The translations under genes were made by a program, and so were the position numbers. DNA of 64,000 nucleotides from Leptolyngbya sp. FACHB-261 (GTDB lineage Bacteria; Cyanobacteriota; Cyanobacteriia; FACHB-261), in contig NZ_JACJPL010000015.1 of assembly GCF_014696065.1 (NCBI RefSeq), forward strand, positions 248,001-312,000, written 5' to 3'. The notes under the pieces were generated by a model. That model did no database searches, was not told where the DNA came from, and saw only the letters and a list, made by a program, of their open reading frames with translations. Shown piece by piece: positions 237 to 13,781 of this stretch (position 1 is the stretch's first letter; each line of letters begins with the position of its first letter).

Positions 237-1862
237 TCACTTGATCCGAAACCAGCGATAGCCATAGCCAGCTAAAGCAATAGCCGCTAAATTATGATTC
301 AGCGGCTCATATTGTTGGTCTCCCAGAAGATCGGTCACGTAAATAGCGTCTAAATCTTTTGTAGTTAAGGTCACAATACAAGCCTGAGCAGATAGGTTGT
401 GCACCGCTATCGCCACTCTTCGCTCATATTGGCAGCAATGGGCAAAGACAGAGGCTGAGCCAGTTTCCAGGATCTGAAGCGTTCCCCAGCCAAATTCTGG
501 GCATTCCCGACGCGTTCGGATCAAGCGCTCCATCCAATTGAGCACCGAGAGCGGATCGCGATGCTGGGCAACGACGTTTACCTGGGCATAGCCATACTCA
601 GGGCTCGAGATTACAGGGCGAATTAGCTTAGCAGCGTCAGCATTGGAGAAACCGCCATTAGCCTCCGGCGACCACTGCATAGGCGTGCGCACACTCATTC
701 GCTCGGGCAACCCCAGGTCATCGCCCATGCCAATCTCCTCGCCGTAGTACAGGACTGGCGTTCCCGGCAGGCTGAACAATAGGCTGTAGGCCAGTTCCAG
801 ACGGCGACGGTCTCCAGCCAACATCGGCGGCAGGCGGCGACGCACCCCCCGCTCGTAGATCTGTGCGTCTGGATCAGGAGCGAAAGCCTCGAACACCACT
901 TGACGCTGTGCTGGGCTGAGCATGCCCAGGTTGAGTTCGTCGTGGTGGCGCACGAAGTTGGCCCATTGTCCGACCGGCGAAATCGGCGGCAGTGCTTGCA
1001 AGCAGTGGTGCAGTGGCTCCGCTTGCTCACTAGCCATCGCTAGAAACAAGGCCTGGTTGAGCAGAAAGTTAAATAGCAGGTGCATTTCGTCGCCCTCACC
1101 GAAGTAGGGAGCAACCTCATGCGGTTCAACATCGGCCTCAGCTAGCAGGACCGCATCGCCGCGCCGCGACGAGAGGAACTGGCGCATCTGCCGCAGAAAG
1201 CGGTGAGGGTCGTTGAGGATGGTAGGTTGATTGCCCTTAGGTCGAATCAGGAAGGGCGCAGCATCAACACGAAAACCAGAGACACCCAACTCCAACCAAA
1301 AACCCATAATTTTACGAATCTCTTCTTGCACTGCTGGATTAGCAATATTGAGATCGGGCTGATGGTAGTAAAAGCGGTGCAAATAGTAAGCTTTAGCCTG
1401 TTCGTCGTAATTCCAAATCCGCTCCTGCACGCCAGGATAAATCACACCTTCATGGGCATTAGCGGGCAACGTTTCGGACCAGACATAGTAATCGCGGTAC
1501 TTCGAGTTTCGGTCAGCGCGGGCGCTTTGAAACCAGGGATGTTGATCTGAGGTGTGATTAACCACGAGATCAATCAGCACTCGCATGCCCTGTTCTCGCG
1601 CTTGATGCGTAAACTCAACAAAATCTCCCAATGTGCCCAGGCGAGGGTCAACACTGTAGTAATCCATCACGTCGTAGCCGTTATCTCGGTTGGGTGAAGG
1701 ATAAAACGGCTGCAACCAAATACAGGTTACGCCCAGACCCGCTAAGTAATCTAAGCGCTGAGTCAGACCTGCGAAGTCACCGACGCCATCGCCGTCACTA
1801 TCTAAATAGGTCTTAACGTCAAGCGCGTAAATAATTGCGTTTTTGTACCAGAGGTTTCTCAT
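237..1862 (-). CDS. treS: GH13 trehalose synthase-like enzyme (maltose alpha-D-glucosyltransferase)
   Basis: Alpha-amylase superfamily protein of 541 aa, best matching trehalose synthase, which interconverts maltose and trehalose in the cytosol. The opening (NAIIYALDVKTYLDSDGDGVGDF), the GYDVMDYYSVDPRLGTLGDF segment and VNHTSDQHPWFQ (101-112) are typical of the GH13 TreS/oligo-1,6-glucosidase group. The catalytic triad is visible: D200 (GFRVDA, nucleophile), E242 (LLAEAD, acid/base) and D308 (HHDEL). The length is close to stand-alone TreS, and there is no fused maltokinase domain. The ATG is preceded by GAGAGGAAAGC, a good ribosome binding site. The gene stands alone with a non-coding region on both sides. 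The substrate is inferred from sequence character; a glucosylhydrolase of the same family is the alternative. Confidence 0.85.
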   Translation of the reverse strand: MRNLWYKNAIIYALDVKTYLDSDGDGVGDFAGLTQRLDYLAGLGVTCIWLQPFYPSPNRDNGYDVMDYYSVDPRLGTLGDFVEFTHQAREQGMRVLIDLVVNHTSDQHPWFQSARADRNSKYRDYYVWSETLPANAHEGVIYPGVQERIWNYDEQAKAYYLHRFYYHQPDLNIANPAVQEEIRKIMGFWLELGVSGFRVDAAPFLIRPKGNQPTILNDPHRFLRQMRQFLSSRRGDAVLLAEADVEPHEVAPYFGEGDEMHLLFNFLLNQALFLAMASEQAEPLHHCLQALPPISPVGQWANFVRHHDELNLGMLSPAQRQVVFEAFAPDPDAQIYERGVRRRLPPMLAGDRRRLELAYSLLFSLPGTPVLYYGEEIGMGDDLGLPERMSVRTPMQWSPEANGGFSNADAAKLIRPVISSPEYGYAQVNVVAQHRDPLSVLNWMERLIRTRRECPEFGWGTLQILETGSASVFAHCCQYERRVAIAVHNLSAQACIVTLTTKDLDAIYVTDLLGDQQYEPLNHNLAAIALAGYGYRWFRIK

Positions 1863-2207
1863 GCTTTCCTCTCAATGCTTTCCATTATGAAATCTACCTC
1901 TTACGCAGCATCGTGCGGGAGAAGGATAGCTTTTATGTCGATCCTCCCTTTGAAGCCTTTTAAATTCTATTAGCTGATCTGCCTCAGGAGAGATGGTTTG
2001 TACTTGAGCAAGTTAGACGCTTTGCTTACACTAAATAAGCTTAGTTCACCCTCAGAAGTACCTCAACAGTATTTCTGCAATGGGTGCTCTCAATGCGTTT
2101 TAAGGCTTTGGTACTTGAGCACTACTGCTTTCAAAAGTAGAAGTTTGCTTTTCGTCGGTCTTGCCTTACTTACTGCTCTTTTTGTTAAATCTTAAGAAGA
2201 ACCAAAC
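1863..2207. other. AT-rich intergenic region with an unconvincing ORF
   Basis: AT-rich spacer between treS and the mini-porin. An open frame at 1998-2195 could only start at TTG, lacks a clear ribosome binding site and resembles no family I know. It is in the same frame as the porin-like ORF and is separated from it by one TAA (2193-2195). The segment could therefore be a decayed upstream part of that gene, although its residues do not look like porin. Confidence 0.4.
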
Positions 2208-2513
2208 GTGAGCATCAAATTATTGCTGTCGTCTGGCATCGCAGCCTCACTGGCCACCGCTCCTGTCGCCTTTGGGCGAGACGGGGACTGGATCCAATTT
2301 CTGTTTGGGCAACCACCCAAGCTCACCCAAGTTAGCGGACGTGAGGTCGAAGAAGACGAGGACACCTCTTTCCGGTTTGGGAGCTTCTACCAGGTTCGCT
2401 TAACTGACGAAATCACCGTTCGGCCAGGCATGTTTGCAGTCACTAATCTAGAACACGACGAGAGCAACAACACGATCTTCGTGTGGACTTTGCGGACTAT
2501 CTTCGAGTTTTGA
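2208..2513 (+). pseudogene. C-terminal fragment of a cyanobacterial OprB-type outer-membrane porin (mini-porin or remnant)
   Basis: The 101-aa product matches only the last 75-85 residues of the SLH/OprB carbohydrate or iron-uptake porins of cyanobacteria (full length usually above 500 aa). The visible landmarks are the FLFGQPPKLT segment, the DEDTSF...FYQVRLTDEITVRPGMF strand pair, and the terminal TIFVWTLRTIFEF. The terminal Phe is the usual outer-membrane insertion signal. The SLH domain and most of the barrel are missing. The first 23 residues from the GTG (SIKLLLSSGIAASLATAPVAFG) can be read as a signal peptide, so it may be an expressed mini-protein. They can equally be read as a drifted barrel strand, which would make it a remnant. 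A single in-frame TAA lies 12 nt upstream. Confidence 0.55.
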
Positions 2514-2689
2514 GCCGTTTTGATTCCATGTTCAAGGCTGAGCCTTGCGAAATAGATGAAAAGCCAAATTTTGTGACCAGAATCACCGTTCTTGAAGCCT
2601 AAGATCACGGTTTCTATAGCTCGCAGATCACTTAAACCCTGAGAGGAATAGCCGATAGTTTAATTATTGAGCCACAAGCCATCCCTCTC

Positions 2690-2932
2690 ATGGATACCCG
2701 CTCGGAAGATCTATCGCCCAACCCACTGCTACAGCTAATACCTTTGGCTCTAAGCTTTGCGGATGATGCGGTACTTCTAGGGCTATCTCGACTGGGGCTA
2801 CCCTTATTAGGGCTATCCTGGCTGTCCTCAGCTTTGCTGGGTTTCACCCTTGTCTACTGGATGGTGCGGTTGCTCAAGCAAATCTTACGGTTTAAGACAA
2901 CAGGTTTGCAAATTCACCCGGTCGGGGTATAG
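2690..2932 (+). CDS. Small hypothetical membrane protein
   Basis: An 80-aa ORF from an ATG. After a polar start (MDTRSEDLSPN) come two leucine-rich hydrophobic segments (about residues 13-33 and 37-60) and a basic tail with KQILRFK. I recognise no family. There is no clear Shine-Dalgarno sequence before the ATG. The DNA contains short internal repeats (ctagggctatct, ttagggctatcc), so the hydrophobicity could be a by-product of repetitive sequence. It could be a two-helix membrane protein or a chance ORF. Confidence 0.3.
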   Translation: MDTRSEDLSPNPLLQLIPLALSFADDAVLLGLSRLGLPLLGLSWLSSALLGFTLVYWMVRLLKQILRFKTTGLQIHPVGV

Positions 2933-2996
2933 GCAGGACTGTAATGTTCTCTTACCGTAAGAAGTAATAACCCTCCTATTCAGAAAGGACAAAAAA

Positions 2997-3080
2997 ATGC
3001 TAGCTCTTCTTCTTTTGGTCTCCGTTGGTAGTGGTCTGTTCTTCGCTAGCGATCATCTGCTGAAAACCCACGGCCTCTAA
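2997..3080 (+). CDS. Candidate 27-aa single-span membrane miniprotein
   Basis: The frame ATG to TAA encodes 27 residues beginning MLALLLLVSVGSGLFFASD, then a short polar tail with two His (HLLKTHGL). It has a good ribosome binding site (AGAAAGGAC) six to seven bases before the ATG. A 13-bp palindrome TCTTACCGTAAGA lies at 2950-2962, about 35 bp upstream. The layout of one hydrophobic helix plus a short tail resembles small subunits of thylakoid or respiratory complexes, but the sequence does not match PetL, PetN, PsbM, Ycf12 or other miniproteins I know. Support is the start signal and the composition only. Confidence 0.35.
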   Translation: MLALLLLVSVGSGLFFASDHLLKTHGL

Positions 3081-3180
3081 ATTCCCACTCTCCAAATTGA
3101 AACTTCCCAGTTTCTTAAAGTCTGGTTTTTTAGAGCCCAGTTTCGAGTCTAGTTTTTTAGCAATCGTCACGAAGAAAGAA

Positions 3181-4905
3181 TTAGCAAGTGCTAGGGCGCG
3201 CCCCAACTAGTTCTAATTGCAAACTGGTTTTCTCCTTCCAGGTATTGGTTCGTAATTTATAAGCCAGATCGACTTGTTCCGGTAATGGACAGTGAGCTCC
3301 CCAGCGCCAAGCCACTGCATTTATTCGGGTTCCAGTCTTATCTCGCACCGTGAGCCGCAGATGTGCATTTTCTTGTCCCATCGTGCGCTGTTCAATGACT
3401 TGTAGGCCACGGCTACAGAAGATCGGTTCAGGATTGCCGATGCCGCAGGGTTGCAGCTGATCCAGTTGCGCCATCAGCTCCAAACTGAGATCTGCCAAGT
3501 CGGCGCAGGCATCAATTTCGACTAAGGGACGCAATTGCTCAGGTTTTAAGCAGCCAGTTGCGAATTGGCGCAGGCGCTGCCGCAGATTGGGCAGGTTCGC
3601 TGGATCCAACGAGAAACCACCGGCTGCTTCATGACCGCCGTGCTTCGCCAGCAGGTCTTTGCAAAACTCCAGTGCCTCGAACACATGAAACTCGGGGATG
3701 CCCCGCGCTGAGCCCCGCACCTCGGTGGTTGAGAGCGAACCAATAAACACCGGCACACCGTAGCGCTCCTTCAGGCGCGAGGCCACAATGCCAATTACGC
3801 CGTGGTGCCAGTTTTCCTGAACCAGTAGCAGCACGCGCTCGGCTGCAAAGTCGATGGGGTTCTGCCCCAACCAGGCCACGGCTTCCTGCTCTATCTGCTT
3901 GCACAGTTGCTGACGCTCGCGGTTGATCTCTTCGCAGACCAGCGCTAACTCTTTGGCTCGCGCCGCAAAGTCTGTGGTCAAGAGTTCGATCACCACGCGC
4001 GGGTCGTCGATGCGACCCATAGCGTTGATGCGTGGTCCCAGGCCAAAGCCCACAGCATCGGGTCGAAAGGCTTCGCCTCGGCCCTGCCGCGTCACCTCGA
4101 TCAGCGCTTGAATTCCCGCCAGGTTCGAGTGCGGCAATCGCTGCAAACCCCAGCGCACCCAACGCCGATTTACCCCGGTCAAGGGAGCCATGTCGGCAAT
4201 CGTGCCCAGCGTAAACAGTTCTAGTAGCTCACCGGCCAGCTGCTTGCGCTGGTTAAAGCGCTCGGCCAGCAAACAGGCCAGCACATAGGCTACGCCCACC
4301 CCTGCCAAGCCCCGAAACGGTGAGTCAACTGGGATCAGCTTGGGATTCAAAATCGCATCGGCAACCGGCAATTTGCCATCGGGGGAGGGCTCGTGATGGT
4401 CGGTGATAATCACGGTTAGGCCCAGGGCTTTGGCTTTGGCAATCGGATCGAAGGCAACGATGCCGTTATCCACCGTCAAAATCACGCTGACGCCGCGTTG
4501 AGCCAGTTCCAGCACCATGCGCTCGTTGATGCCATAGCCATCGTGGGCGCGGCTGGGGATCTCATAACTGGCCTTGGCTCCTAACTGCCGGAAGGTGCGC
4601 AGCAGCAGAGCTGTGCTGGTCATACCATCGGCGTCATAGTCGCCACAAATCGCAATCGGTTGTCCTGTTCTCACTGCCTGTTCTAGACAATCGAGTGCCG
4701 GTGTTAAATCACTGAAGTGCTCGCGCGGATCCGGTAACTGCCAGGTTTCAGGATGGAGAAACGTCTGCGCCGCTTCCAGACTATTTTTGCCTCGGCTTAC
4801 CAACACCTGCGCCACTAGGGGAGACAGATTTAGCTCGTCGGCAAGCTGCTGCACGAGCTGAGCTTGGGCAGGTTGGGTGATCCAGCGTTGGTCAGGCAAA
4901 GGCAT
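3181..4905 (-). CDS. recJ: Single-stranded-DNA-specific exonuclease RecJ
   Basis: A 5'-3' exonuclease of the DHH phosphoesterase superfamily that acts on single-stranded DNA in recombination and mismatch or base-excision repair. The DHH core is clear: ICGDYDADG (87-94), LTVDNG (143-148) and TDHHEP (168-173) supply the metal-binding aspartates and histidines. The DHHA1 part (HHGVIGIVASRLKERYG, then GGHEAAGGFSL) and the C-terminal OB-like domain with PCGIGNPEP follow in the usual order. At 574 aa it is the normal length. It starts at ATG and has no close operon partner; the divergent carotenoid oxygenase gene begins 150 bp away. Confidence 0.95.
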   Translation of the reverse strand: MPLPDQRWITQPAQAQLVQQLADELNLSPLVAQVLVSRGKNSLEAAQTFLHPETWQLPDPREHFSDLTPALDCLEQAVRTGQPIAICGDYDADGMTSTALLLRTFRQLGAKASYEIPSRAHDGYGINERMVLELAQRGVSVILTVDNGIVAFDPIAKAKALGLTVIITDHHEPSPDGKLPVADAILNPKLIPVDSPFRGLAGVGVAYVLACLLAERFNQRKQLAGELLELFTLGTIADMAPLTGVNRRWVRWGLQRLPHSNLAGIQALIEVTRQGRGEAFRPDAVGFGLGPRINAMGRIDDPRVVIELLTTDFAARAKELALVCEEINRERQQLCKQIEQEAVAWLGQNPIDFAAERVLLLVQENWHHGVIGIVASRLKERYGVPVFIGSLSTTEVRGSARGIPEFHVFEALEFCKDLLAKHGGHEAAGGFSLDPANLPNLRQRLRQFATGCLKPEQLRPLVEIDACADLADLSLELMAQLDQLQPCGIGNPEPIFCSRGLQVIEQRTMGQENAHLRLTVRDKTGTRINAVAWRWGAHCPLPEQVDLAYKLRTNTWKEKTSLQLELVGARPSTC

Positions 4906-7728: not shown

Positions 7729-8070
7729 CTAAGTTCGGGAGTTATTGCTTAAGGCTCGGTGCAGAAGTGGGGCGGAGAGGTTATAGAGGGTGACGGCGGG
7801 ACGACCGCGCACTTCATTAGGAACGCGCATACTTTCGATCCATTGTTTGGTTTCGAGGGTGCTGAGCAGGCGGTTGATTTCGGTTTCACTTTGGCCGCTG
7901 TGGACGACGAGCAAGGAAATAGGAATGCGGGCTCGTAAACTTCTGGGGTCGGTGAGATTGGCAATCACGAGCAACAGGATTTTGGAGGAGGTGGGAAGGC
8001 GAATTTCGCGGCTGATGTGGTCCCAGAGTTGCAGGCGAATTTGAGAAGGGGAGAGGTGAGAAGTATTCAT
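7729..8070 (-). CDS. Unknown small protein, winged-helix-like, second gene of a coupled pair
   Basis: A 113-aa protein from the ATG at 8070. This start overlaps the TGA of the upstream gene as ATGA (8067-8070), which indicates translational coupling. The middle (SSKILLLVIANLTD, then ISLLVVHSGQSETEINRLLSTLETKQWIESMRV) looks like a winged-helix DNA-binding fold with a recognition helix followed by a wing (RGRPAVTLYNLS). That is structural inference, not a family match. It could be a DNA-binding partner or antitoxin-like regulator of the preceding protein. The pair lies at the left edge of the accessory region. Confidence 0.55.
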   Translation of the reverse strand: MNTSHLSPSQIRLQLWDHISREIRLPTSSKILLLVIANLTDPRSLRARIPISLLVVHSGQSETEINRLLSTLETKQWIESMRVPNEVRGRPAVTLYNLSAPLLHRALSNNSRT

Positions 8071-8471
8071 TGAGGTGCGGTGAGGGGTTGGGGATTGGGC
8101 GTGTAAAAACTGCGCAGGTTGAGGTCGAGATCCAATTGGGCTTTGCGTTGTTGCCACAGTCGGTGGAGATAGGCGACGGTGTCGGCGGCGTAGGTGAAGC
8201 GTTCGATTTCGTGTTTGAGCAGTTGGCCGAGTTCTTGCAGGGCTTGATGGTCTGAACAGGTGCGAATGGCTTGCACACAGGCTTCGAGCCAGTAGATGAG
8301 GTTGCGGTAACTGATGAATTGGCCGCCTCGATCTTTGCGATGCACAAACAGGACATTGGCCCATTGTTCAAAACGCAGAATTAGGTCGGGTGGAATGCCT
8401 AAGTAGGTGGCGAGATAGCTGAGCGAAATCTCGAATTGATGCGGATTAATGGTCTGCAAAAGTTGGCGCAT
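8067..8471 (-). CDS. Unknown protein, first gene of a coupled pair
   Basis: A 134-aa product counted from the ATG at 8471. The frame stays open to 8546, but the extra N-terminal residues are translated from an intergenic palindromic repeat (GAGFPCP), so they are probably not real. It is predicted mostly helical, with LSYLATYLGIPPDLILRFEQWANV, RNLIYWLEACVQAIR and a coiled-coil-like stretch LQELGQLLKHEIERF. I recognise no family. It shares a 4-bp ATGA overlap with the downstream winged-helix-like gene, so the two products are probably made together. Retention of both frames beside repeats suggests a small accessory module. Confidence 0.5.
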   Translation of the reverse strand: MRQLLQTINPHQFEISLSYLATYLGIPPDLILRFEQWANVLFVHRKDRGGQFISYRNLIYWLEACVQAIRTCSDHQALQELGQLLKHEIERFTYAADTVAYLHRLWQQRKAQLDLDLNLRSFYTPNPQPLTAPQ

Positions 8472-8511
8472 AGGGATGCGAGTTGTAGAAGGGAGGCTGC
8501 AATGTTGCACC

Positions 8512-8655
8512 GGGCAGGGAAACCCTGCCCCTACGGAATTCGTCATTGAAAACCGAGGGATTTACAATTTCACAGTCGTGGGTAGGGGCAGGGTTTCCCT
8601 GCCCTTTAGGGGGGCCAGAATGCGGTCCTTGGGTAGGGGCGAGGTTGCCTCGCCC
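8512..8655. repeat. Three copies of a GC-rich 19-bp palindrome
   Basis: Three near-identical inverted repeats lie in a gene-free stretch: GGGCAGGGAAACCCTGCCC at 8512-8530, GGGCAGGGTTTCCCTGCCC at 8586-8604 and GGGCGAGGTTGCCTCGCCC at 8637-8655. Each has 8-bp perfect arms and a 3-nt centre, and copies 2 and 3 are preceded by GGTAG or GGGTAG. This type of dispersed palindrome is common in cyanobacterial intergenic DNA. Transcripts through it would fold into hairpins. The rest of 8656-8922 shows no gene. Confidence 0.8.
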
Positions 8656-8922: not shown

Positions 8923-10968
8923 TCAACTACGCTCTGGCATTTGGGCAAAATGCTCGCGCAGCAGATCGTGGGTGAAGCGATAACTACCACCAACCCGTTG
9001 TAGGAAGAGGCGCTCAGTGGCGTAGTTAAGGAAGCGGGCATAGTTCCAGGGGATATTACCGCTTTGCCAGAGGATGAGACGGAGAGTGAAATGTTGGATG
9101 CAGGTTAGACCGCCATACTGAAACATCCCAAGAATCAGGCCAGCACTCAGCCCACTAAGCAGCCCCCCAAGCAGCCCAACACTCAGCCCAAAAAGCAGTC
9201 CAACAATTACAGCGTTACTTGCAGAACGCCAAATACCCTGATTAGGAATAGCTTTCCTTTCTACTTCAAATCCACTCAGCCCACCAAGCAGCCCAAGAAT
9301 CAGTCCAAAAAGCAGCCCACCAAGCAGCCCAAAAAGCAGCCCAACACTTAGCCCAACAAGCAGCCCAACACTCAGCCCAAAAATCAACCCAACAAGCAGC
9401 CCAACACTCAGCCCAACAAGCAACCTACCACTCTGGAAGTATTCACGTAGTCCAGCCCCTGCGTTTTTCCAAGACCAACGTAGAGTCTCAACCAGCTCAA
9501 TCTCATCACTCAGCCCAACACTCAGCCCAAAAATCAACCCAACACTCAGCCCACTAACCAACCCAACACTCAGCCCACCACTCAGCCCACCACTTAGCCC
9601 AACACTCAGCCCACCACTCAGCCCAACTCCAATTCGATATGCTTGCTTCTGAGAGCCTCGTTGTAACCAGGCTGGCTGTATTTTCTCGATTAAGAATTCG
9701 GTTTGCTTTTCGGCTTTTAGTCTTTGAGCTAACCAAATCAGCCAGTGACGAGTTTTTTCTGGAGTTGGCTCTTTTCGCTCGGTGTACTCCTGGCTTTTTA
9801 TAGATCGCTCTAGCATCCGCCTAATATAGGCATCAAAGAGATAACGCTGACGCTCTTGAGAAGAAGCAAGCTGCTGCCATTCTGGAAAGGAAATTTCTTG
9901 ATAAGCCAGGGTGATAATGCTCAGCAAAAGCGGCGTTTGAGCTAAATCCAGTAGCGCTGGATCACTCGCAATGCTTTGCCACAACTCTGGACCTGTAACG
10001 CGCAACAGATATTCTTTAATTTGAAATTGCTCCAGAGGTAACAAGCAGATTGCCCCATTCAGATTAAGGCTAGTCTCATGGCTCTCGTATTCTTCCAAAC
10101 GGCTGCAAACAACTACATGTCTGGGTCGCTCATCCGATTGAAGCCACTCGTTAATCGCCTCAACACACTTCGCTTGCCGCTCTGAGGCCAACTCATCCAA
10201 CCCATCCAGCAACGGCAAAAGCTTTCGCTCTCTTAACCACCTCTGTCCAATATCTGCCCGCACCCCATACTTGAGCTTGAGTTCCGCCACCAACCAATCA
10301 AAAATACTTTGCTCGTTCTTCTGCCAAGATGAAAGGTTTACTAAAACTGGAGTTGGCTGCTCAAAGTCTTCTTCATTACGAGCAATTAGCTGCTTCGCTA
10401 AATCCAGAAGCATTGTCGTTTTGCCAGCCCCCGGTGCTCCCAAAAGCAACAGCTTACCTGCAACATCCGGGAGTTCAAAAACCTCAATGACGCTTGTTCC
10501 TGGCGCCAAAGGATAGTGAGGCCGTGTGCCAATTTTGACTTGCACATCCCAAGGCCGTTCAACCTGTTTCGGCTGTGCCTCCATATGCAAAATCAAGCGC
10601 ACCTGATTGTGCAAAGAACTGCTGAGCCGCCCCTCAACTTCTCCCTTGACCGACTCCTGCAAAATTTTGAGATTGCGAGACTCCTGCTCAGAAGAAATCC
10701 CAGTTGCTTCATCTTGCTTAGGCTTGTCACTATCCGCCTCAGACTGATTTGAAAGCCAAACCAGAAAAGCCGACGCAAGCGTTAAAATCAGCAGCAGCAA
10801 AACGATTGCCTGCTGGGTTGCAGAGAATTCAATTCCAGAGATTGAGCGGGTTTGGAACCAAAGGAATTGGGGCTGCTTAGGAATCTCTGGCAAGTTGTTC
10901 GTGAGCCAGCCAACCAGAAGAGCAATAATTGCAGACAACAAGGCCAACAGGAAAAAATTCTTCTGCAT
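8923..10968 (-). CDS. NACHT-domain NTPase with a glycine-zipper-like membrane array (copy 1)
   Basis: A 681-aa STAND NTPase. Two N-terminal membrane segments (about 5-25 and 54-74) precede a linker. The NACHT domain has Walker A GAPGAGKTT (177-185), Walker B LLPLLDGLDEL (250-260) and the arginine-containing VVVCSRLEEYE. After a helical region come three arrays of GLS/GLL repeats (447-486, 515-568, 589-614) spaced every four residues, which would form Gly-rich GxxxG membrane helices. The tail (WNYARFLNYATERLFLQRVGGSYRFTHDLLREHFA) is the conserved end of cyanobacterial NACHT proteins. NACHT proteins in bacteria include anti-phage sensors; whether this is one is inference. A paralog lies directly upstream. 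The alternative is a membrane signalling NTPase of unknown trigger. Confidence 0.85.
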   Translation of the reverse strand: MQKNFFLLALLSAIIALLVGWLTNNLPEIPKQPQFLWFQTRSISGIEFSATQQAIVLLLLILTLASAFLVWLSNQSEADSDKPKQDEATGISSEQESRNLKILQESVKGEVEGRLSSSLHNQVRLILHMEAQPKQVERPWDVQVKIGTRPHYPLAPGTSVIEVFELPDVAGKLLLLGAPGAGKTTMLLDLAKQLIARNEEDFEQPTPVLVNLSSWQKNEQSIFDWLVAELKLKYGVRADIGQRWLRERKLLPLLDGLDELASERQAKCVEAINEWLQSDERPRHVVVCSRLEEYESHETSLNLNGAICLLPLEQFQIKEYLLRVTGPELWQSIASDPALLDLAQTPLLLSIITLAYQEISFPEWQQLASSQERQRYLFDAYIRRMLERSIKSQEYTERKEPTPEKTRHWLIWLAQRLKAEKQTEFLIEKIQPAWLQRGSQKQAYRIGVGLSGGLSVGLSGGLSGGLSVGLVSGLSVGLIFGLSVGLSDEIELVETLRWSWKNAGAGLREYFQSGRLLVGLSVGLLVGLIFGLSVGLLVGLSVGLLFGLLGGLLFGLILGLLGGLSGFEVERKAIPNQGIWRSASNAVIVGLLFGLSVGLLGGLLSGLSAGLILGMFQYGGLTCIQHFTLRLILWQSGNIPWNYARFLNYATERLFLQRVGGSYRFTHDLLREHFAQMPERS
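9127..9630. repeat. 12-bp tandem repeat encoding the GLSVGLLxGL membrane array (copy 1)
   Basis: On the plus strand the units read as variants of agcccaacactc in blocks at 9127-9204, 9265-9426 and 9511-9630, inside the NACHT gene. The period is 12 bp (four codons), and many neighbouring units are identical. Loss or gain of a unit keeps the frame, so the length of the membrane array could vary between strains. Confidence 0.85.
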
Positions 10969-10987
10969 CGTCTGAACTGGCTCAGCC

Positions 10988-11056
10988 CATCTTGAGTGCC
11001 ACTATAGCTGCTGGAGCCCCCCTAACCCCCCAATTCTGGGGGGAACCGGATTTATT
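10988..11056 (-). promoter_or_regulatory. Conserved upstream region of NACHT copy 1
   Basis: Two stretches are identical to those upstream of NACHT copy 2: 21 bp at 10988-11008 (matching 13411-13431) and GGAACCGGATTTATT at 11042-11056 (matching 13474-13488). On the coding strand the first contains TATAGT, a possible -10 box, but no good -35 is visible. A C-rich/G-rich palindrome (near 11020-11043) lies between them. Conservation could also reflect only the recent duplication. Confidence 0.3.
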
Positions 11057-11164
11057 GCTTCTCTTCGATTTCGTAACGCTTAAGCTTTCATGGCGTTTTT
11101 TCGCTAGGCAAAATCTCTAATCAGAACCGTTGTGATTTTTGCAATAGGTTCCGCAAGGCTGATT

Positions 11165-13363
11165 TCAACTACGCTCTGGCATTTGGGCAAAATGCTCGCG
11201 CAGCAGATCGTGGGTGAAGCGATAACTACCACCAACCCGTTGTAGGAGGAGACGCTCGGTGGCGTAGTTGAGAAAGCGAGCGTAGTTCCAGGGGATATTG
11301 CCGCTTTGCCAGAGAACGAGACGGAGAGTGAAATGTTGGATGCAGGTTATACCGCCATACTGCAACAGCCCAATAATCAGCCCGATAACTAGCCCAGTAG
11401 TCAGCATAAACCTCAGCGCAACAATCGGCTCAACTACTAGCCCACTAATCAGTCCACCGACCATTCCAATAATCAACGAAAACATTAACCCAACAATCAG
11501 TGCACCACACACAGCGTTACATGCAGAACGCCGGATGCCTTGGTTAGGAGTAGCTTTCCTCTCTACTTCAAGGCCACTTAGCCCACCTCTCAGCCCAAGC
11601 CTTAGCCGGAACAGCAGCGCAAGCATCAGCACCAACATTGCCCCAAATTTTGGATCAACAAGCAGACTACCAAGCAAACCACTAAGCAAACCACTAAGCA
11701 GACCAATTCTGAGCTCAGGGATGGGGATTCTACACAGCCCAGACCATGCTTTCTTCCAGGACCAGCTTAGAGTTTCAACCACACTAATCTCATCCATCTG
11801 TCTAGGCCCCAGCCCGACCCCTGGCACAAACATCAGCCCAAACATCAGCCCAAACGTCAGTCCACTAGTTAGCCCGGACTTCAACCCAAACATCAGCCCA
11901 GACCTCAGCACACCAATTAGCACACCAATAGGCACACCAACTAGTCCACCAATCAGCACACATCCAATTTGATATGCTCGCTTCTGAGAGCGTTCCTGTA
12001 GCCAGGTCGGCTGCATTTTCTCAATCAGAAACTCAGTTTGGTTTCCGGCTTTTAGTCTTTGCGCTAACCAAATCAGCCAGTAACGAGTTTTTTCTGAGGT
12101 TGGTTTTTTGTGCTCGGTGTACTCTTGACTTTTTATCGTTCGCTCTAGCATCCGTCTGATATAGGCATCGAAGAGATAACGCTGGCGCTCTTGAGAAGAA
12201 GCAAGCTGATGCCATTCTGGAAGAGATATTTCCTGATGAGCCAGGGTGATAATGCTTAGAAAAAGCGGCGTTTGAGCCAAATCCAGTAATGCCGGATCAC
12301 TTGCGATGCTTTGCCACAATTCCGGGCCTGTAACGCGCAACAGATATTCTTTGATTTGAGATTGCTCCAGAGGCAATAAGCAGATTGCCCCATTTAGATT
12401 GAGACTGGCCTCATGGCTCTCGTATTCTTTCAAACGGCTGCAAACAACGACACGTCCAGGCCGCTCATCCGATTGAAGCCAAGCATTAATCGCTTCAACA
12501 CACTTCGCCTGACGCTCTGAGGCCAACTCATCCAACCCATCCAGCAACGGCAAAAGCTTTTGCTCTCGCAACCACCGCTGCCCAACATCTGCCCGCACCC
12601 TATGCCTGAGATTGAGTTGCGCCACCACCCAATCAAAAATACTTTGCTCGTCTTTTTGCCAAGATGAGAGGTCTAGCAAGACTGGAATTGGCTGTTCAAA
12701 ATCTTCCTCATTACGAGCGAGAAGTTGCTTTGCCAAATCCAAAAGCATTGTCGTTTTTCCAGCTCCTGGTGCCCCCAAAATCAACAGCTTGCCTGCAACT
12801 TCTGGGTGTTCAAAAACCTCAATGACGTTTGTTCTTGGTGTGGCAGGATAATGAGGCTGCATGCCAATCTTGATACCCCTAGCCAAAGGCGAATCCACCT
12901 GTTTCGGCTGCGCCTTCATACACAGAGCCAAGTGCACCTTATTGTGCAAAGAACCACTCAGCCGCCCCTTAACTTCTTTCTTGACTTCCTCCTGCAAAAT
13001 CTTGAGAATTCGATACTCTTGCTTAGGAGAAATCCCAGCCGTTCCACCTCTATCAGGCTCACTGCTTGGCCCAGCGTTTCTTCTCAGGATATTAACTAGT
13101 TGAGACGCATCGATAGTGAAGAAAACTAGGCACAGGATCCCTAAAGCTTCTACTAAAGCTTTAGTCTTCTCACTGCTTGACTCAGGCGGATTAGCCAACC
13201 AACTCAACGAAACGCCTAGAATCACAAGCTCAAAGGCCAACCTCAAGACTGAAAAGGTCCTTCCTGGGACTTGAGGGAGCGAGGGCAATTGGTTAAGCAA
13301 CCAACCTAAAACAGCAGCCACCACTGCGCCAAGCAGCAATCTTAGTAAAGGATCATCTGGCAT
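11165..13363 (-). CDS. NACHT-domain NTPase with a degenerate glycine-rich membrane array (copy 2)
   Basis: Paralog of the neighbouring NACHT gene, 732 aa from the first ATG at 13363; the frame is open to a TTG at 13408. Three N-terminal membrane segments (about 5-25, 37-57, 72-92) replace the two of copy 1. Walker A is GAPGAGKTT (197-205) and Walker B LLPLLDGLDEL (270-280). The NTPase core and the C-terminal 60 residues are nearly identical to copy 1. The N terminus and the membrane array (IGGLVGVPIGVLIGVL, SGLTSGLTFGLMFGLMF and others) have diverged. This pattern of a conserved motor with variable membrane parts suggests the two copies sense or act differently. The function is unproven; a defence or stress-signalling role is the leading idea. 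Confidence 0.85.
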   Translation of the reverse strand: MPDDPLLRLLLGAVVAAVLGWLLNQLPSLPQVPGRTFSVLRLAFELVILGVSLSWLANPPESSSEKTKALVEALGILCLVFFTIDASQLVNILRRNAGPSSEPDRGGTAGISPKQEYRILKILQEEVKKEVKGRLSGSLHNKVHLALCMKAQPKQVDSPLARGIKIGMQPHYPATPRTNVIEVFEHPEVAGKLLILGAPGAGKTTMLLDLAKQLLARNEEDFEQPIPVLLDLSSWQKDEQSIFDWVVAQLNLRHRVRADVGQRWLREQKLLPLLDGLDELASERQAKCVEAINAWLQSDERPGRVVVCSRLKEYESHEASLNLNGAICLLPLEQSQIKEYLLRVTGPELWQSIASDPALLDLAQTPLFLSIITLAHQEISLPEWHQLASSQERQRYLFDAYIRRMLERTIKSQEYTEHKKPTSEKTRYWLIWLAQRLKAGNQTEFLIEKMQPTWLQERSQKRAYQIGCVLIGGLVGVPIGVLIGVLRSGLMFGLKSGLTSGLTFGLMFGLMFVPGVGLGPRQMDEISVVETLSWSWKKAWSGLCRIPIPELRIGLLSGLLSGLLGSLLVDPKFGAMLVLMLALLFRLRLGLRGGLSGLEVERKATPNQGIRRSACNAVCGALIVGLMFSLIIGMVGGLISGLVVEPIVALRFMLTTGLVIGLIIGLLQYGGITCIQHFTLRLVLWQSGNIPWNYARFLNYATERLLLQRVGGSYRFTHDLLREHFAQMPERS

Positions 13364-13781
13364 TACTTGTATTTTGCTCAGTGCTGGCAACGAGGGGCAC
13401 CGAAGCAATCCATCTTGAGTGCCACTATAGCCGCCAGAACACAGAGAGTCCTCCTACCTCCTCCACCCTGGGAGGAACCGGATTTATTACGTCCCTCTAA
13501 TACCAATTGTCTAAATGAGAGCTAGAAATCAGAACCCCACCGCCTATGGCTCCTCCCCTTGGCAAGGGGAGGCTGGGAGGGGTCGATGTGTAGCAGTTAA
13601 AAAGGGAGTTGGTATAACTCCCTGATGCAGCATTAACTGGAATTCTTGCTCCCCCCAACCTTGGGGGGGCCGGGTGCCTTTCTCAGCCACGGCAGAAGTC
13701 TCTCCTCTCAATCCTGATCTTGGTTTTGCCTGTGCGTATATAACTGTTGCTTAAGCGAATGCAACTTTTCTGAAAGCGTTA
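13364..13781. other. Gene-free region with GC-rich palindromes
   Basis: Intergenic DNA between NACHT copy 2 and the 21-bp repeat array. It includes sequence shared with the upstream region of copy 1 (13411-13431, 13474-13488). It also includes a palindromic element around 13552-13580 (CTCCCCTTG gca AGGGGAG, then GGGAGGGG) and a C/G-tract palindrome around 13651-13670. These resemble small dispersed cyanobacterial intergenic elements. No ORF looks real. Confidence 0.5.

Follow-up and report, generated by a model that had tools for sequence, protein, structure and literature searches.

NACHT receptors of the NLR/STAND class, among them NOD2, NLRC4, NLRP3 and the bacterial bNACHT proteins, combine a NACHT nucleotide-binding domain (NBD), a helical domain (HD1) and a winged-helix domain with a variable effector slot at the N terminus and an LRR, WD or TPR sensor, and in NLRs the winged-helix domain rotates during activation. 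In multicellular bacteria, STAND-centred conflict systems join a constant NTPase to interchangeable TIR, CHAT, caspase, kinase or EAD modules, as described in two reports (PMC7159879, PMC8195603), while the bacterial amyloid signalosomes of the BELL/BASS type have a two-gene arrangement with matched motifs (PMC7889193, PMC8086366). Besides, the cyanobacterial STAND protein XssQ is a transcription activator (PMC8205485). The two genes described here lie in a 64,000-nucleotide stretch of the Leptolyngbya sp. FACHB-261 genome (hereafter the window, to which positions refer unless a locus is named). Their products share with the NLR/STAND receptors the NACHT NBD, HD1, the winged-helix domain and the variable N-terminal slot, but they have no LRR, WD or TPR sensor and instead bear six predicted membrane helices inside the winged-helix domain.

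Both genes, and all features given below for them, are on the minus strand. Gene 1 (8923..10968) encodes a protein of 681 amino acids and gene 2 (11165..13363), its tandem paralogue, one of 732 amino acids counted from the ATG, with a TTG at 13408 as a possible alternative start. These assignments are based on the open reading frames and their translation, on AlphaFold2 (AF2) models and on matches to the Pfam NACHT model PF05729 (36.5 bits for gene 1 and 39.3 bits for gene 2; cut-off 26.7). The NBD corresponds to residues 171-325 in gene 1 (9994..10458; Pfam match 174-323, with Walker A and B motifs) and, by Pfam, to residues 191-345 in gene 2 (12329..12793). The Walker A sequence GAPGAGKTT and the sequence LLPLLDGLDEL are exact in both, and G177, G180, G182, K183 and D255 are invariant across 76 relatives. 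The NACHT antiphage protein EruA (NCBIfam NF058535) gave a weak local match near Walker A, scoring 19 bits where the cut-off is 1000, and the window proteins are therefore not members of that family. Open reading frames, Pfam, hydropathy and shuffled sequences bore out the preliminary description of two adjacent genes with a NACHT motor, N-terminal membrane helices and glycine arrays.

HD1 and the first part of the winged-helix domain span residues 326-432 of gene 1 (9673..9993, from hhalign comparison with canonical NACHT proteins) and 12008..12328 in gene 2 (from alignment to gene 1). They are followed by a module with GLxx arrays and six predicted membrane helices, at residues 433-636 of gene 1 (9061..9672), where model helices, an excision test and GxxxG counts delimit it, and at residues 453-687 of gene 2 (11303..12007), which has the same six-helix topology. 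The second winged-helix part then closes each protein, in gene 1 as residues 637-681 (8926..9060, FLQRVGGSYRFTHDLLREHFAQ; C-terminal match to canonical NACHT and model) and in gene 2 at 11168..11302 (alignment, with 96% identity to gene 1 over the last 56 amino acids). In the AF2 model of gene 1, built from 42 relatives (pLDDT 83.4, pTM 0.79), NACHT and the helical domain lead into the first helices of the winged-helix domain; six long helices follow, and the chain closes with a beta hairpin between two helices. The six module helices lie at residues 438-464, 466-483, 515-538, 540-561, 577-601 and 603-617. The gene 2 model (pLDDT 78.5, pTM 0.73) keeps this order, with module helices at 458-488, 490-512, 548-568, 571-594, 608-639 and 646-668. 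A Foldseek search with the model returned NOD2, NLRC4 and NLRP3 as the nearest solved folds; no solved structure of the family was found, and a sequence search of the PDB gave RFC-like AAA matches only.

The position of the module was examined by excision. When residues 433-636 were removed, the family profile aligned end to end with canonical cyanobacterial NACHT proteins with an hhalign score of 223.9, against 206.2 for the intact profile, 200.7 for a truncated one and 201.7-201.9 when the C-terminal columns were shuffled. The last 45 amino acids of gene 1 alone match positions 303-349 of canonical NACHT proteins of the same genome (E 1.6e-4), the C terminus falls on the same canonical positions in 39 of 42 members, and the short relatives L092, L093, L098 and L103 have zero to two helices where the module would lie. 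Alignment after excision and the PDB fold matches both indicate a helical domain and a winged-helix domain after the NBD, and in the AF2 models of both proteins the chain ends in the winged helix, with no C-terminal superstructure sensor (LRR, WD or TPR). Judged from these alignments and models, the six-helix membrane module is an insertion within the NACHT winged-helix domain, and the two proteins are predicted to be membrane-inserted NACHT/STAND switches, which supports an NLR-like logic. A polytopic membrane insert inside an NLR-type winged helix is an unusual family architecture; no description of it was found in the literature surveyed, although papers on BASS or on the bNACHT clades may mention it, and the consulted sections of the reports on STAND-centred conflict systems (PMC7159879, PMC8195603) do not mention an integral-membrane module inside the switch. 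Some family members have at least nine predicted helices (L085 5845-8625, L058 2613-5114, L101 5836-8904), and L058 carries a linker segment in repeated copies, as if membrane half-modules had been duplicated.

The glycine-leucine arrays of the module were previously proposed to be the effector itself, with the glycine-zipper helices of several subunits packing into a pore upon NTP-driven assembly. The density of GxxxG is indeed far above chance, since the gene 1 module contains 28 GxxxG and 23 GxxxGxxxG motifs (9.1 and 1.9 expected from residue shuffles) and the gene 2 module 17 and 9 (6.0 and 0.9 expected), counts reached by none of 5000 shuffles, and the AF2 models predict six hydrophobic helices per subunit that could take part in such packing. 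However, the array-bearing module belongs to the constant half of relatives whose outputs are TIR, CHAT or kinase domains or a partner protein, and many relatives retain the helices with weak arrays or none at all: L030, L034, L036 and L038 have sparse GxxxG (6-7 matches each, counted over whole proteins), and the Streptomyces relative L056 few or no arrays. Moreover, array length differs between close relatives, with stretches gained or lost inside the array. We consider a pore formed by the arrays distinctly unlikely. The GLxx arrays look instead like slippage-prone, low-complexity coding of the small-residue-rich module helices, as far as can be judged from sequence; in gene 1 they are encoded by degenerate 12-bp tandem repeats detected by Tandem Repeats Finder (9148..9627, as 9148-9206, 9277-9422 and 9507-9627). 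An origin of the arrays from the cyanobacterial HIP1 repeat was rejected, because the window contains a single HIP1 site. In three further NACHT proteins encoded by this genome, L001, L002 and L004 (G000:C10:66995, C1:52947 and C26:76898), the switch is followed by low-complexity arrays of other kinds (ARALALARDLDLALD, RDLVRDLDRVRVLVRDL, ALSLSLDLDLDCALALNHA), the common theme being repeat growth behind NACHT domains.

Comparison of the two copies by protein segment showed that they differ mainly in their N-terminal and membrane parts. Identity is 31% over the N-terminal 90 residues, 65% in the linker, 86-89% in the switch (NACHT and first winged-helix part), 61% in the membrane module and 96% over the last 56 residues; the motor and C terminus, earlier called almost identical, are close, and the stronger wording does not hold. 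Between the genes, dN is 0.06 and dS 0.48 in the switch (dN/dS about 0.13 in NACHT), compared with a dN of 0.30 and a dS of 0.49 in the membrane module (dN/dS about 0.6); purifying selection acts on the switch, and the membrane module evolves faster. A 22-bp leader element, found by alignment and genome-wide counting, precedes gene 1 (10987..11008, GCTATAGTGGCACTCAAGATGG) and, in identical form, gene 2 (13410..13431). It occurs in exactly two copies in the genome, one upstream of each gene, and nowhere else at two or fewer mismatches. Since this element is shared by both copies, and given the segment identities and substitution rates, the duplication probably took in the leader. After duplication the switch was probably kept by purifying selection, while the N-terminal slot, with conserved sequence on either side, was replaced or diverged rapidly. 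Rfam gave no match in the gene-pair region, and promoter-like sites there did not exceed the expected number. Inverted repeats of the C6/G6 type (ccccccaaggttgggggg, ccccccagaattgggggg) occur in the leader regions at 13640-13700 and 11010-11050 of the window and resemble a dispersed small repeat.

The N-terminal segments of the window proteins are predicted to enter the membrane. Gene 1 has a putative transmembrane (TM) hairpin at residues 5-76 (10741..10956) with the motif G-x-x-x-N-x-L-P, delimited by hydropathy, model and alignment, although its model helices (5-25 and 50-76) are of low confidence (pLDDT about 50). In gene 2, residues 5-96 (13076..13351) contain hydropathy-based membrane segments and low-confidence model helices, so that hydropathy gives two N-terminal membrane helices in gene 1 and three hydrophobic segments in gene 2. 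Comparable TM segments occur in about 20 of 80 family loci; cyanobacterial hairpins share the motif G-x-x-x-N-x-L/W-P in the alignment, and actinobacterial ones a related G-x-x-x-N. At the same position, Pfam found TIR (5), CHAT (5) and protein kinase (4) domains among 74 members, as well as caspase, EAD1, EAD10, HTH and AAA_35 domains. The N terminus is, on domain matches and models, a swappable slot, in which the window proteins hold a predicted TM hairpin. The conflict-type domains of the relatives accord with the systems outlined in PMC7159879, PMC8195603 and PMC7889193, and since the slot contents are those of STAND-based conflict systems, the output most likely comes from the slot, here from the TM hairpins. 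The membrane module, being part of the constant half, is more likely an anchor or a sensor than a killer.

Other relatives have short Q/N/G-rich N termini, and the upstream partner gene of many of them bears a matching motif at its C terminus, so that these members resemble the NLR half of a BELL/BASS pair; this putative assignment follows gene arrangement and motif matching rather than BASS models. The motif similarity of the true pairing of 43 gene pairs was reached by none of 20,000 random pairings. A matched partner gene accompanied 12 of 33 members with short non-TM N termini but none of 20 with TM hairpins, which fits hairpins replacing the partner. The window pair departs from BELL/BASS pairs in that a predicted TM hairpin stands where the motif would be and no adjoining gene encodes a partner with a matched amyloid motif. 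An amyloid-like motif in the N-terminal segment of the window pair was considered and rejected, because the segment is a predicted TM hairpin and the partner gene is absent.

Several loci show further arrangements of their own. In Nostoc (plasmid and genome contigs), genes for pentapeptide-repeat proteins of about 690-756 amino acids (L054 3676-5796, L057 3601-5808, L058 441-2513, L060 3528-5789, L119 3460-5727) lie directly upstream of the NACHT gene and share its N-terminal motif, and the ones inspected over their whole length contain a hydrophobic insert; such a protein is a possible, and unusual, partner in an amyloid-type pair. On Nostoc sp. C057 plasmid p057_M, a CHAT-NACHT-membrane fusion (L059 1125-4755) adjoins a trypco2 family gene and an alpha/beta hydrolase and resembles reported conflict operons, and in L062 a truncated caspase-like duplicate (316-717) lies immediately upstream of a caspase-NACHT-membrane fusion (794-3442).

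The layout, for which no described system had been named earlier, turned out to be common, in relatives annotated simply as NACHT domain-containing proteins. Scanning genome contigs with an alignment yielded 284 confirmed relatives, while a scan with a single protein as query returned no match; the best 80 of the 284 belong to Cyanobacteria, Chloroflexi, Actinomycetota, Chlorobi, proteobacteria, Myxococcota and Verrucomicrobia. Of 291 evenly sampled cyanobacterial genomes, 42 contained full-length relatives at E <= 1e-40, and 22 of 59 relatives gave a match at E <= 1e-30. In the 6.95-Mb source genome, 18 NACHT-like matches were found at E <= 0.001 (13 over the Pfam cut-off), and the window pair alone represents the full-length family. 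A second strongly matching family gene adjoined the first in two of the 80 loci (L071 and L139). Within this widespread family, the window pair is an ordinary representative.

Plasmids contributed 27 records, mostly from Nostoc, whose products bear the annotation NACHT domain-containing or hypothetical protein, and no relative was found in the phage collection. Many of the Nostoc plasmid copies lie near recombinase, ParA or toxin-antitoxin genes, as would suit a device that served plasmids and other mobile elements in stabilisation or competition and afterwards became established in chromosomes; most copies examined are nevertheless chromosomal and no mobile element was seen next to the window pair, and we regard such an origin as very improbable.

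An association of homologues with defence islands, for which a survey had been suggested, was not found when PADLOC was applied to the neighbours of 20 family loci and 20 matched control loci, a small sample. PADLOC and NCBIfam defence models gave only weak, NTPase-level matches to the pair, its neighbours in the window are housekeeping genes, and no experiment on any family member was found in the literature. The housekeeping neighbours and the lack of defence enrichment, together with the HTH-type N termini of some relatives and the activation of exopolysaccharide genes by XssQ in Synechocystis (PMC8205485), would suit a membrane-anchored sensor or regulator of ordinary physiology, such as envelope stress, transport or gene expression, with no immune role. 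On the other hand, patchy distribution and plasmid carriage are typical of conflict systems, as are TIR, CHAT, caspase, EAD and amyloid-like slots, and we judge a purely physiological role rather unlikely. Just downstream of gene 1, a minus-strand ORF of 159 amino acids (8067-8546), which has no Pfam or NCBIfam match, overlaps a 211-amino-acid ORF (7729-8364) in another frame.

The explanation that we favour, at somewhat better than even confidence, is that the pair are membrane-embedded, NLR-like STAND switches whose output is provided by the N-terminal hairpins, and not by the glycine arrays, in an immune or stress response. The six-helix module would anchor the switch in the membrane, and a change or ligand at the membrane would release autoinhibition through this module. 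Because the module is built into the domain that rotates in NLRs, and presumably rotates here as well, a membrane cue could release the switch. NTP-driven oligomerisation would then cluster the N-terminal hairpins, which might disturb the membrane or recruit a partner and lead to growth arrest or cell death. The architecture makes a role in defence plausible, and the family as a whole probably acts at the membrane to set off defence or death of the cell. Counting against this explanation, and against an immune role in particular, are the lack of agreement with defence models, the neighbourhoods not enriched in defence genes and the housekeeping neighbours, together with the HTH-type relatives and XssQ, which show that STAND proteins can serve gene regulation (PMC8205485). 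The low-confidence hairpin is a further point against the explanation.

More tentatively, and with appreciable doubt, the lipid bilayer itself may be the ligand, so that the winged-helix membrane module would read membrane tension, potential or phage-made lesions and drive NACHT assembly directly, with a hairpin, TIR, CHAT, kinase or amyloid-templated partner as interchangeable outputs. If the proposed reading of the pair is right, the proteins would represent an NLR-type switch that senses through an integral-membrane insert in its mechanical core. They would then offer a direct handle on how bacteria could detect phage damage to the membrane and convert it into cell death, as well as on how movement of the winged helix gates NLR assembly. 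As the family occurs in several phyla with interchangeable outputs, a single membrane module could be combined with many of them in tests.
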